From a virus, in the IMG/VR virus record IMGVR_UViG_3300020172_001410, positions 1 to 36,316 of that record: DNA of 36,316 nucleotides. One strand, 5' to 3'. The notes under the pieces were generated by a model that did not search any database, had not been told where the DNA came from, and saw only the letters and a list, made by a program, of their open reading frames with translations. The position numbers were made by a program, and so were the translations under genes. Below, piece after piece: positions 27,529 to 34,733 of this stretch. How positions within the stretch are numbered: position 1 is the first letter of the stretch; every line of letters starts with the position of its first letter.

Positions 27529-29577
27529 TTAAGGAACTATAGGTATGTTTGGTGGAAAAGGTGCTGCCATGTGATGACGAATTGAGCTGTCTAATATCAA
27601 CTTCAACCCGCCGCCGGTTTTTAAGAACATTACCTTTGGATACTTGGCTCCAGGCTTATCCCATCTCTGCAACATTCTCACGCCATCTTCAAATTGTTTG
27701 ATTGTTGTGGGTGTGTCTATTAGTTTTCCTGGAACATGAATAGGTCTTACAACTTTCCATGTTGTGATGGTTTTATCGGCGTTTTCATATTTGATGTACG
27801 CACCCTCAAGGCCTCCCGCAGGTATAGCTTCTAATAGCTGATGGGGTTCTGGACTTGGACTGAGAGTCACTAATTTGCCGTTGCTGTCTGATGTGGGTTT
27901 ATACACTTCTCCGGGAAGTCCGGCCGGCCACAGAAACCCAGGCTTTGGAGAAGAGTCTGTAGTCTCTGTCTTTTTGTCTGCATCATTTTCTACCTCTGGT
28001 GATTGTGGAGATGTGTATGGTGGGTCAGGAGCAAATACTGTACCATCCAAGTGAATTTCTGGAGCCTTCAGATGAATTGCTTTTCCAGAAATTAAGTCAC
28101 AATCACCTTCTGCCTGGATACTGATCGTCTTAGCACCCTTTATGAATATGTCACCACCTTTGGCGTAAATGTATATTCCATCGCCGGTCGCAAGATGAAA
28201 ATTCTCAGATACTTCTGCATTTAAGTTTGCCCCAACAGCAAGATTGGTATCATTTCCAGATTTGATTCGGATTGCCTCTGTGGCTTCAGCATTTATACTT
28301 TTTGCACCCAAGAAGTAATCGCTGAGAACGAAGTTGTATTGCTCTTTCACCACTTTATTGACTTCTTTTCCGTCGGGGTGAACTTCTGTGAAAGTTCCAG
28401 AACGATGATACCAATGCAATCGTTCTGCGCCAGGTGTATCATCAACTTCAATCACATGGCCAGACTCGCTTTCGTGGACGTGATTGTATGGATATTTTGC
28501 TGCATATGGTGTGACCGGTTCTTGAAATGCAAACGCGGCAGACTGTGCTGTTTCGTCTTGTGCATCATGGCCGGTGCCTAACCCTACAGATAAGTTTTCT
28601 TTTTTCAACCCAACAACAGTTTTTTCTGGATCTTCACCTCGCGCCAGTCTCGATATTGAAGGCTCTCCCAATTTATCGGCATTTGGATAACTAGATGGAG
28701 GAACCCGGCCGGCAACACCCGTTGCCGCTCCGCCTGTGTAAAATCCGGCGGCGTTGAGTGCTTCCCGAAGCATTATCTCCACATCTTCTAATGTAAATGC
28801 TCCGTCTTTGTTTCTATCAAATTTTGATGTTGTTATGCTCCATCCATTCATCAATTCTCCAAATGCGGATGTAGATCCAGGAAGAGCATCTTCTTTTGAA
28901 AATCTGTCTTGTATTTCTTCATCACCGAAGAGAGCCTCAGTGAACATGTCGGTTATTGCAGTAACTTGAGATACAAGCCACGCTACAGCCTTTTTTATTG
29001 CATCTTGTACTTCGGCAGATAACGCCGCTATAGCATCAGGAATTCTGGCTAGTGCAGAACCAAGCTCAGATACAGGAATACTATTCTTTCCCTCGAACAT
29101 AATATCAATCGATTGATTGACAGCATCCATAAGATCATCTGGCGGCCCTAAACTCGCTACATACTTTCTTATTGCCATCACGTTGATGCTCGGCACAATT
29201 TCTGTGGCAGGCATCATGACCGGCGGTGTAGGCCGGCTTGCAGGGGATAGATCTGTGGTTGGATCGTTGAACCCTTTTTCAGGGTCTGCTGGGTCTTTGG
29301 GAATACCAGGAAGAGAACCCGCAATAACTGGCTTTTGGGCATCGTGATCCATAAAGAATCCCCAAACCCAGTCACCTTCTTTTAGAGTTATGTTCTGATG
29401 TACGGCGTTTACTCCCATGCTGGGAAGTGCCCAGAGTAGGTCGTTTGTCGGCAGCTCACTCTTATCTTCGGTGTGCATTCCGAATATGCGAACACGAACA
29501 CGACCCAATTTGACCGGGTCGTTTCGATCCTCAACAACACCTATGAACCAATGAAATCCATTTCTGCCGACAAACAT
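27529..29577 (-). CDS. 5: Baseplate central spike / hub protein, gp5-like, without lysozyme domain
   Basis: Residues 1-95 form the gp5/VgrG-type OB domain (FHWFIGVVEDRNDPVKLGRV, then LKEGDWVWGFFMDHDAQKPV and IAGSLPG). Residues 362-400 hold PYNHVHESESGHVIEVDDTP followed by GAERLHWYHRSGTF, the usual entry to the spike. About 425-512 is a beta-helix of short repeats (INAEATEAIRIKSGN, IYIYAKGGDIFIKGAK, then IHLKAPEIHLDG). T4 gp5 has a lysozyme domain between these parts. Here the same interval (about 100-360) is helical and low-complexity with no E-D-T lysozyme motif. It contains an EF-hand-like loop, DRNKDGAFTLED (254-265). A C-terminal extension of about 150 residues follows the beta-helix. The gene would encode the membrane-piercing spike of the tail tube. 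A possible late box lies at 29609-29616, and GGATAGTTAGAG precedes the ATG. Confidence 0.85.
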   Translation of the reverse strand: MFVGRNGFHWFIGVVEDRNDPVKLGRVRVRIFGMHTEDKSELPTNDLLWALPSMGVNAVHQNITLKEGDWVWGFFMDHDAQKPVIAGSLPGIPKDPADPEKGFNDPTTDLSPASRPTPPVMMPATEIVPSINVMAIRKYVASLGPPDDLMDAVNQSIDIMFEGKNSIPVSELGSALARIPDAIAALSAEVQDAIKKAVAWLVSQVTAITDMFTEALFGDEEIQDRFSKEDALPGSTSAFGELMNGWSITTSKFDRNKDGAFTLEDVEIMLREALNAAGFYTGGAATGVAGRVPPSSYPNADKLGEPSISRLARGEDPEKTVVGLKKENLSVGLGTGHDAQDETAQSAAFAFQEPVTPYAAKYPYNHVHESESGHVIEVDDTPGAERLHWYHRSGTFTEVHPDGKEVNKVVKEQYNFVLSDYFLGAKSINAEATEAIRIKSGNDTNLAVGANLNAEVSENFHLATGDGIYIYAKGGDIFIKGAKTISIQAEGDCDLISGKAIHLKAPEIHLDGTVFAPDPPYTSPQSPEVENDADKKTETTDSSPKPGFLWPAGLPGEVYKPTSDSNGKLVTLSPSPEPHQLLEAIPAGGLEGAYIKYENADKTITTWKVVRPIHVPGKLIDTPTTIKQFEDGVRMLQRWDKPGAKYPKVMFLKTGGGLKLILDSSIRHHMAAPFPPNIPIVP

Positions 29578-31691: not shown

Positions 31692-31719
31692 AGTATAGCA
31701 AACCTGTTTTGTAAGTCTA
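31692..31719 (-). promoter_or_regulatory. Putative host-type promoter with extended -10, after the protease gene
   Basis: The minus strand has TAGACT (31719-31714), a 16-base spacer, and TATACT (31697-31692) preceded by TGC, so the extended -10 is TGCTATACT. The -35 begins right after the protease stop codon. The same nine bases occur in the promoter of the protease itself (33573-33565). Confidence 0.5.
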
Positions 31720-33522
31720 TTATTTTATCTGTTTTGTGAGAAGTCCACACAACTCATTTATCTGACTTGTGGTGGCGGTTCCTCGAAACGTCGTGGATAT
31801 GCTCGCGGAAGAAATCACGGTCTTTTCATTCGTCTTCGCAAGAACATACACTTGTGAAAAGTATTTTGACAGTTCTGGTATAACAACACTCAGTTGGTTG
31901 CTGCCATTTTGAAGTGTAGTAGTTGCGTAGTTGGAACAACCGTACAACTTGTTTCCTGGCGTCTTCAACACAAACTGAATCCTGGCTGATGTTGCTGCTG
32001 TGGAAAATCCAGAGATAGAAACTGTTGTTGTATCTCCAAGACTTACAGTAGATGGATTAAACGACACCTGAGGGTTCGGAGTAGGCGTATTCGTAGGCGT
32101 CTGTGTTGGCGTGGCAGTTGCTGTGGGTGTATGCGTATACGTTGGTGTTGAAGTGATTGTCGGGGTGAATGTTGGTGTGGGTTGTGGCGTGCCTGTACCT
32201 ACAGGTGCTGTAGTGGGGACCGTCGTGGGTGCTGCCGTAGGTACAGCACAAGTGCTATTTGCTGCATATACGGCGCCAACTGCATTTGCCAAAGATGCGC
32301 TCGAAACTTTGCCCTGTAGTGCTGATAGTTTCAGTCCGTTGTTTAGTATGACACTTCTGACCTGAGCTACAGATAAGTTACATACAGAATTTGTGAGTAC
32401 AGCCAAGCCAGAAACGTGCGGCGCTGCCATCGATGTGCCACTTTTGTATCCGTACTTATGCTTTAGAATTGAGCTTAGTATGCCCGATCCGGGCGCTGCT
32501 ATATGCACAGACGTTGCGCCGTAGTTCGAGAATGATGATAGTGAGCCGCTCGATGTCACTGATGCTACAGAGATGACGTTACCTGCCGAATAGTTAGCAG
32601 GATATGATGGATAAACATCCGTGTTTGCTGCACTATTTCCCGCAGATGCTACAAAGAGTATACCTTCACTTTCGGCCAATTTTACTACATCGAGAAACGG
32701 CTTAGAAAATGCACTAGAGCCATACGAGTTGTTCATCACAACAACTTTATGTCCAGCCCGCTTGAGGGCGATGCCGTAATTGATTGCACGAATGGCGTTT
32801 ACAGAACTACCAACACCAGACGATGACAAAAACTTCATACTGACGAGTTTAAGTTTATGTGCTATGCCAGCGATTCCTATTGTGTTGTTACCCACTGCGC
32901 CGATAATACCAGCAACATGTGTGCCGTGTCCATTGTCGTCTATGCCAGAACCAATTCTTGTGATGGCATTCATGCCATTCACATCGTCGATGTAGCCATT
33001 GTAATCATCGTCGAGTCCATTATTCGGAACTTCTTTGGGGTTCACCCAGATATTCTGCGCCAAGTCTGGATGATGAACTTCTATTCCAGTGTCGATGACT
33101 AGCGCCAACAAATCATCTTTGCCTGTAGTAACGTCCCACGCTCCGGGAGCTGCCATCAGTTGTGGACCATACTGATAGCTATAATACACATCGTCGGGGG
33201 TTGATGTTATAGTGAGCGCATTATTAGCAACACAAAGTATTTTGCCTTTTGACGCTTTTTGAATTCTTCGTATGCTTGCTTTTCGACACAACGAAGATGA
33301 ACGATTATACACTAGAGGAACATCTCGATTCTGTCTCTTATCTGCCACAAATACTGAGCTGCTGGACAGCTTCTCGTAATTCAAATTGGCAAACTTATGC
33401 GACTTATATGAGACGCCTCGATGTGATGTTAGAATCACACCCGAATAGACCGACCGTTCTTCTGCACTCACTGTTGATACGACAACAAGGAGGGCTGCAA
33501 CAATTTTCACAAACGCTTTCAT
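31720..33522 (-). CDS. Secreted subtilisin-family (S8) serine protease
   Basis: The 600-residue protein begins with a signal peptide (MKAFVKIVAALLVVVSTVSA, cleavage likely after residue 20). A prodomain-like segment runs to about 115. The subtilase domain runs from about 118 to 420, with a complete triad: D144 in ALVIDTGIEVHHPDL, H199 in DDNGHGTHVAG and S364 in SGTSMAAPHVSG, plus oxyanion N296 in SAGNS. An insert with NNGLDDDYNGYIDD (about 167-180) is typical of many bacterial secreted subtilases and may bind calcium. Residues 428-483 are a Thr/Pro-rich linker (TPTATATPTQTPTNTPTP), followed by a beta-sandwich-like C-terminal domain. There are six cysteines. I prefer the ATG at 33522: GGAG lies eight bases upstream and the signal peptide begins there, whereas the longer frame to 33555 adds eleven residues in front. 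The protein should leave the cytoplasm or act at cell or virion surfaces. Confidence 0.93.
   Translation of the reverse strand: MKAFVKIVAALLVVVSTVSAEERSVYSGVILTSHRGVSYKSHKFANLNYEKLSSSSVFVADKRQNRDVPLVYNRSSSLCRKASIRRIQKASKGKILCVANNALTITSTPDDVYYSYQYGPQLMAAPGAWDVTTGKDDLLALVIDTGIEVHHPDLAQNIWVNPKEVPNNGLDDDYNGYIDDVNGMNAITRIGSGIDDNGHGTHVAGIIGAVGNNTIGIAGIAHKLKLVSMKFLSSSGVGSSVNAIRAINYGIALKRAGHKVVVMNNSYGSSAFSKPFLDVVKLAESEGILFVASAGNSAANTDVYPSYPANYSAGNVISVASVTSSGSLSSFSNYGATSVHIAAPGSGILSSILKHKYGYKSGTSMAAPHVSGLAVLTNSVCNLSVAQVRSVILNNGLKLSALQGKVSSASLANAVGAVYAANSTCAVPTAAPTTVPTTAPVGTGTPQPTPTFTPTITSTPTYTHTPTATATPTQTPTNTPTPNPQVSFNPSTVSLGDTTTVSISGFSTAATSARIQFVLKTPGNKLYGCSNYATTTLQNGSNQLSVVIPELSKYFSQVYVLAKTNEKTVISSASISTTFRGTATTSQINELCGLLTKQIK
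32074..32241 (-). repeat. Low-complexity Thr/Pro linker coding repeat
   Basis: About 56 codons alternate ACN and CCN, giving GT-rich plus-strand DNA. They encode the flexible linker between the protease domain and the C-terminal beta domain. Such tracts are common in secreted bacterial enzymes and rare in phage virion proteins. Confidence 0.8.
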
Positions 33523-33564
33523 AATGACATTCTCCAAAAGTAGTAATATACGCACCTACATTGG

Positions 33565-33592
33565 AGTATAGCATAATGTGTGAATCCACACA
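33565..33592 (-). promoter_or_regulatory. Putative protease promoter with operator-like inverted repeat
   Basis: TATACT (33570-33565) is preceded by TGC, an extended -10. Just upstream, where a -35 box would lie, is the inverted repeat TGTGTG-GATT-CACACA (33592-33577 on the minus strand). No good -35 hexamer is seen, which is tolerated with an extended -10. The predicted leader to the ATG at 33522 is about 35 bases with a good GGAG site. The inverted repeat could bind a regulator. Confidence 0.5.
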
Positions 33593-33618
33593 GAACTATC
33601 TTCTACGAGTTTTTCGTA

Positions 33619-34339: not shown

Positions 34340-34684
34340 TCAATCCAAATACTTCTTTATATTCCTAAGATATTCATCGATGTGGAGTGTGACACAAGCT
34401 CTCTCAACTTTTCCTATTAGCGTGTTGCATTGTCCACACAAAATTCCTCTAACTTTTCCTGTTGTGTGGCAGTGGTCTATAACTCCAGCCTGATTGTCAT
34501 TAACAAACAGACCCACTTCACATCGACACAATTTACACCTACATTTTTGTAAAGTTAAAAGAGCTTTCTGTTGAATTCTGTTCAGTCCATATCTCATTAA
34601 GCCGTTTTTGCACGTTTTGCATTGTAGCCCTTCGTGATACACAAACTCATTCAATTCTATGCTGCAATGTTTGCATCTTTTCAT
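34340..34684 (-). CDS. Recombination endonuclease VII-like nuclease
   Basis: The 114-residue protein carries the endonuclease VII/HNH signature IDHCHTTGKVRGILCGQCN followed by LIGKV. D70, H71 and H73 are likely catalytic or metal-binding. Two further cysteine pairs, C4/C7 and C22/C25, precede a cluster C48, C50, C53, C55 that with C83/C86 would hold structural zinc. T4 gp49 (157 residues) resolves branched DNA before packaging. Many phages also carry short free-standing homologues like this, so the role may be junction resolution or DNA nicking/homing. I chose the ATG at 34684, preceded by GGAG at nine bases. An in-frame GTG at 34729 would give 129 residues but lacks such a site. The GGAG lies inside a hairpin (34689-34708). 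Confidence 0.82.
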   Translation of the reverse strand: MKRCKHCSIELNEFVYHEGLQCKTCKNGLMRYGLNRIQQKALLTLQKCRCKLCRCEVGLFVNDNQAGVIDHCHTTGKVRGILCGQCNTLIGKVERACVTLHIDEYLRNIKKYLD

Positions 34685-34688
34685 ATCA

Positions 34689-34708
34689 GCAATCTCCAGC
34701 GAGATTGC
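34689..34708 (-). promoter_or_regulatory. Hairpin hiding the ribosome binding site of the endonuclease gene
   Basis: On the minus strand GCAATCTC (34708-34701), loop GCTG, and GAGATTGC (34696-34689) form a perfect 8-bp stem, extendable by a G-U pair. The Shine-Dalgarno GGAG comprises the last loop base and the first three bases of the 3' arm. The ATG follows four bases after the stem. Confidence 0.7.
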
Positions 34709-34733
34709 CCGGTGAGCAGAATACAACACACAT

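Follow-up and report, generated by a model that had tools for sequence, protein, structure and literature searches.

The cargo known from isolate T4-like phages, where metabolic, is known to act mostly inside the cell. Proteases with the S8 catalytic fold are encoded by some isolate phages, among them Bacillus SP-15, Herelleviridae such as BSP12, and Moorella MTATph1. In bacteria, the deseasins are described as secreted, multidomain, collagenolytic enzymes that come mainly from sediment species and carry a C-terminal collagen-binding domain (PMC9549277). No T4-like phage with an exported subtilase came up among the titles and abstracts listed from the open-access literature, for which coverage was incomplete. 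Here we analyse a candidate for such an enzyme. Its gene is probably moron-like cargo that a T4-like lineage acquired horizontally, and probably encodes an exported, active subtilase.

The window analysed, 36,316 bases long, corresponds to a complete IMG/VR virus record. Its minus strand carries homologues of gp5, gp25, gp6, gp7 and gp8 in T4 order, as judged by Pfam, phrog and gp6 comparison; gp8 is followed on the same strand by the gene for a 2,758-aa protein and then by tail-fibre-type genes. Relatives of this phage have T4-type terminase and sheath genes. On gene content and order, the window phage is accordingly placed among the T4-like phages, as an earlier note on this DNA had proposed. 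By gp6 and by the terminase of one relative (G001), the nearest T4-like isolates are cyanophages, Pelagibacter phages, Caulobacter Cr30 and Sinorhizobium phages. The G001 terminase is 54–56% identical to its nearest isolate counterparts. Because gp6 of the window phage is just 31–34% identical to that of the nearest isolates, we regard it as a member of a deep, uncultured lineage. Together with G001, G002 and G011, whose contigs are fragments like its own, it makes up what we call group A. The protease gene is separated from gp5 by six small genes, and the spike gene begins 2.1 kb away (29577), in agreement with the roughly 2 kb given before. An Endonuclease VII-type HNH ORF (34340–34729), possibly a mobile or homing element, also lies near the protease gene. 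Features of the locus are collected in Table 1.

Table 1. Features of the protease locus, numbered from the first base of the window.
Feature	Coordinates	Strand	Basis
gp5 baseplate hub/spike gene	27529..29577	-	phrog_430 (9.2e-79); Pfam Gp5_OB
Gene flanking the insertion site downstream, 69 aa	31476..31685	-	Homologue abuts that of 33619-33846 in L171
Second TGCTATACT, ahead of the next gene	31692..31700	-	Pattern count; sequence
S8 protease gene, 600 aa, intact	31720..33522	-	Pfam Peptidase_S8 (1.5e-48, cut-off passed); catalytic residues; kept in relatives
Ig-like beta domain at the C terminus (residues 484-600), two Cys conserved	31723..32073	-	AlphaFold pLDDT 94; five-relative alignment; generic Ig-like matches
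Thr/Pro linker, residues 426-483	32074..32247	-	Sequence; pLDDT about 33, disordered at ~427-480
Catalytic domain, residues 106-425	32248..33207	-	Pfam match; PDB match to deseasin MCP-01
Region resembling a pro-domain, residues 21 to about 105	33208..33462	-	AlphaFold beta/alpha fold at ~24-104, pLDDT mostly 73-83
Signal-peptide-like N terminus, residues 1-20	33463..33522	-	MKAFVKIVAALLVVVSTVSA followed by EE, read by eye; model helix 2-16; similar in G001, G002, G011
Ribosome-binding-site-like GGAGA	33531..33535	-	Conserved in four phages
TGCTATACT, resembling an extended -10 promoter element, ahead of the protease gene	33565..33573	-	Shared without change by the window phage, G001, G002 and G011; distance to the ATG 47-51 nt
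Palindrome TACGAAAAACTCGTA, possible operator or hairpin	33604..33618	-	In all four group-A phages; upstream of TGCTATACT
Gene flanking the insertion site upstream, 75 aa	33619..33846	-	Homologue abuts that of 31476-31685 in L171

The earlier note had read the gene as a complete S8 protease, and this was borne out. The reading frame is open, and D144, H199, N296 and S364 lie in canonical S8 context and are invariant across nine aligned phage homologues. The Asp-His-Ser triad and oxyanion Asn that define peptidase family S8 are all present. An alternative GTG start 33 nt upstream would give a protein of 611 aa; the ATG at 33522 was taken as the start because the GGAGA motif and the relatives favour it. 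The Thr/Pro linker and C-terminal beta domain described previously were also recovered, and the N terminus, read by eye, looks like the signal peptide described there. Confidence in the AlphaFold2 model is modest for the catalytic domain. Pfam matched no family to the pro-domain-like region and none over its cut-off to the C-terminal domain, for which fold searches returned generic Ig-like matches only. Both Cys residues of the C-terminal domain are kept in five of five relatives that have this domain, which would fit a protein working in an oxidising compartment. In its predicted architecture, the protein matches multidomain subtilases that are exported. Comparison of the window phage with G001, in which synonymous sites are close to saturated, gives a dN/dS of 0.09 for the whole gene and 0.04 for its catalytic part, a sign of strong purifying selection.

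Four other contigs carry the protease gene at the identical place upstream of gp5, with the same neighbours. Identity to the window protein is 76% in G001, 51% in G002, 55% in G011 and 52% in L172/G175, where the gene sits at the contig edge. In the sister phage L171 the site is empty, with 1 nt separating the homologues of the two flanking genes; the protease gene thus lies between two genes that adjoin in a related phage, as is characteristic of a moron. A different small cargo ORF (L176:3500-4620), with ATGCTATAGT ahead of it, occupies the site in L176. In G003 the neighbouring genes have homologues but leave no space for a protease, and its 30 kb contain no S8; none was found in the 164-kb contig G189 either. 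Among 46 further gp6-bearing viral contigs, many of them fragments, two have an S8 over the family cut-off. On the gp6 tree, S8 presence needs at least three state changes, and four on the best tree. An S8 match was found in 42 isolate-phage records, none of them named as a T4-like phage, against a gp6 homologue in 2,360 isolate records. Judged from this distribution, the protease gene is clade-restricted cargo and lies outside the known T4 core, as the earlier note had held. The contrary case which that note had allowed for, a normal core gene present throughout related T4-like phages, is ruled out by the two in 46 gp6 contigs with S8 and the lack of T4-like-named isolates with S8.

In two trees, the proteases of the window phage, G001, G002, G011, L172, G012, G013 and G014 form one clade (support 100/97 and 99/97). 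This phylogeny, suggested earlier as a check, nests the phage clade among secreted bacterial S8 proteases, with deseasins nearest, and so gives the kinship to cellular genes expected of an auxiliary metabolic gene. A sister position to Pseudoalteromonas is not supported (64/53). The S8 and gp6 trees disagree on the position of L172; a clade of group A plus L172 is not rejected (AU p 0.33). Bacteroidota were weakly rejected as donor (AU p 0.044). Recent capture from a sampled host is unsupported: in the catalytic domain, the cellular homologues found reach no more than about 47% identity.

Protease relatives are also carried a few kb upstream of the terminase gene by a second T4-like group, comprising G012, G013 (145 kb), G014 and G016. 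These proteins terminate in a Thr/Pro tail and are without the C-terminal domain. In G012–G014 a tyrosine integrase gene lies between the protease and terminase genes. Tyrosine integrases (L118:2368-3003 in G012; L124:4062-5180 in G013, which has two) may mark this group as temperate. Another S8 is found in the T4-like contig G015 (104 kb), and other viral S8 proteins (L038, L040 and L042, from G015, G017 and G019) have short Cys-rich C-terminal tails. The distant T4-like contig G199 (177 kb) encodes a secreted S8 with a GC-type dockerin (L245:241-3267) that adjoins an HtrA/trypsin-like protein and a sliding-clamp gene. In the later tree, the two Bacillus isolate-phage S8 proteases that were retained branch outside all the above enzymes of T4-like phages.

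The control region of the protease gene is conserved as well. The promoter-like TGCTATACT, called by a consensus-like match, begins 45–46 nt after the start of a palindrome of the form TACGA-N5-TCGTA in the window phage, G001, G002 and G011. In a shuffled-sequence control, 0 of 2,000 sets had a common 9-mer in register. Common descent also contributes to this sharing, although these phages have diverged to saturation, or close to it, at synonymous sites. We take this conserved element to be a putative promoter belonging to the protease gene itself. Exactly one further copy of the palindrome in each of G001 (62121), G002 (18526) and G011 (7033; contig coordinates) may be a shared operator. A simple scan found no terminator-like site directly downstream of the protease gene. 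Codon usage in codons 1–425 lies at a distance of 0.324 from the phage structural genes, which were the only control genes, whereas none of 78 control windows exceeds 0.287; such atypical usage is a further mark of a moron. The suggestion that the gene is a moron taken from a host can therefore be upheld in part: the empty site, promoter-like element, codon usage and nesting in cellular S8 speak for it, and a recent single acquisition does not stand. The gene is old, conserved in its clade, and common to the second T4-like group at another locus.

We propose that in the host-infection phase RNA polymerase would transcribe the protease gene from its own promoter. The pre-pro-protein would leave the cytoplasm via the host Sec pathway, and the pro-domain would steer folding and then be removed. 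The linker and Ig-like domain may serve the mature enzyme as a spacer or targeting module. This enzyme would cleave its protein targets beyond the cytoplasm of the host. Its likeliest benefit, which we put forward tentatively, is the breakdown of extracellular, matrix or surface protein, by which amino acids would be freed or the surroundings opened. This purpose is given the lead because of the likeness to deseasins and because of accompanying genes in relatives, namely a second exported protease and, in one phage, aminotransferases.

The second protease, also exported, is a reprolysin-like metalloprotease of the M12B type in which both zinc motif and Met-turn are intact; it is present in G002 (L024:4376-5686), G011 (L113:4495-5799) and G013/G016 (in G013 at L121:16964-18253). 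Among 28 contigs, a small and fragmentary sample, it is confined to S8 carriers. Eight IMG/VR viral contigs match it in all; isolate phages and plasmids gave no match, and Bacteroidota gave weak matches only. G002 has two aminotransferase ORFs (L023:6535-7818 and L023:12460-13665), an L-lysine 6-transaminase (530 bits against an NCBIfam cut-off of 520.8) and a second PLP aminotransferase. The best match of the lysine 6-transaminase (56%) is in Bacteroidota and is not decisive as a host clue; the tRNAs of the relatives gave none. All these genes lie outside the window and are absent from some relatives. It is conceivable, if rather doubtful, that the exported S8 and M12B proteases, with the lysine 6-transaminase and second aminotransferase of the one phage, act as an exoproteolysis kit with which infected cells digest external protein for phage replication.

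The same export architecture would also serve an enzyme that cuts the cell's own receptor, S-layer or envelope, thereby blocking superinfection, freeing progeny from debris or aiding lysis. The C-terminal domain might bind a cell surface, and the gene sits among tail genes. No anchor motif was recognised in the window protease, however, and its deseasin-like catalytic part points to broad protein degradation, while the aminotransferases and second protease of the relatives fit nutrition at least equally well. We consider such remodelling unlikely, though a serious contender, and we lean somewhat towards the breakdown of extracellular protein rather than envelope remodelling, lysis or superinfection control. 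The place of the gene upstream of gp5, kept in five contigs, could instead suggest an enzyme carried on the virion to help the particle through surface layers or matrix at entry. A signal peptide would, however, export the protein from the cytoplasm, where virions are assembled; the gene has its own promoter-like element, lies far from baseplate genes in the second T4-like group, and is missing in sisters with the same baseplate. A virion-borne role is accordingly improbable.

Strong constraint and a single locus in all four group-A phages are also what a maturation protease acting on phage structural proteins might display. Sister phages with the same tail genes nevertheless lack it, and T4 already has gp21, of an unrelated family, as its head maturation protease. 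The signal peptide, linker and Cys pair would place the enzyme outside the cytoplasm, and we hold a maturation role to be very improbable. Atypical codon usage might finally raise the suspicion of an assembly chimera, as the earlier note had anticipated, or of host contamination. However, four further contigs, whose IMG/VR sample numbers differ, show the same junctions at 51–76% identity, and these shared neighbours exclude both in practice.

The cargo reading of the locus, with an exported subtilase, suggests that these phages alter the surface or surroundings of the infected cell, or help the cell feed on protein. If this is true, these T4-like viruses would alter the exterior of their host or its use of environmental protein.

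Compared with known systems, the S8 proteins of isolate phages share the catalytic fold with the window protease at about 30–36% identity, are short and annotated as intracellular-type or plain proteases, and lie outside the phage cluster in the tree. The T4-like isolates nearest to the window phage (cyanophages, Pelagibacter phages, Caulobacter Cr30 and Sinorhizobium phages) gave no S8 match in records so named. Secreted S8 proteases of Bacteroidota and Chloroflexota are 38–47% identical to the phage enzyme in the catalytic domain, with no close donor among them; Thr/Pro-rich stretches like that of the phage protease also occur in the Caldilineae genome searched. Deseasins (MEROPS S08.130) come closest. 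MCP-01 of Pseudoalteromonas sp. SM9913 is the best PDB match to the catalytic domain (280 bits, the next being 147), and Pseudoalteromonas proteins are the top cellular S8 against the phage profile (451 bits). Like deseasins, the window protease is multidomain and, by its architecture, probably secreted. Deseasins have a PKD domain, whereas the window protease has no PKD match in Pfam; because this domain is missing, we do not file it as a deseasin. Unlike deseasins, it is encoded by a phage, and its catalytic domain is followed by a Thr/Pro linker and then by a C-terminal domain unrelated to theirs.
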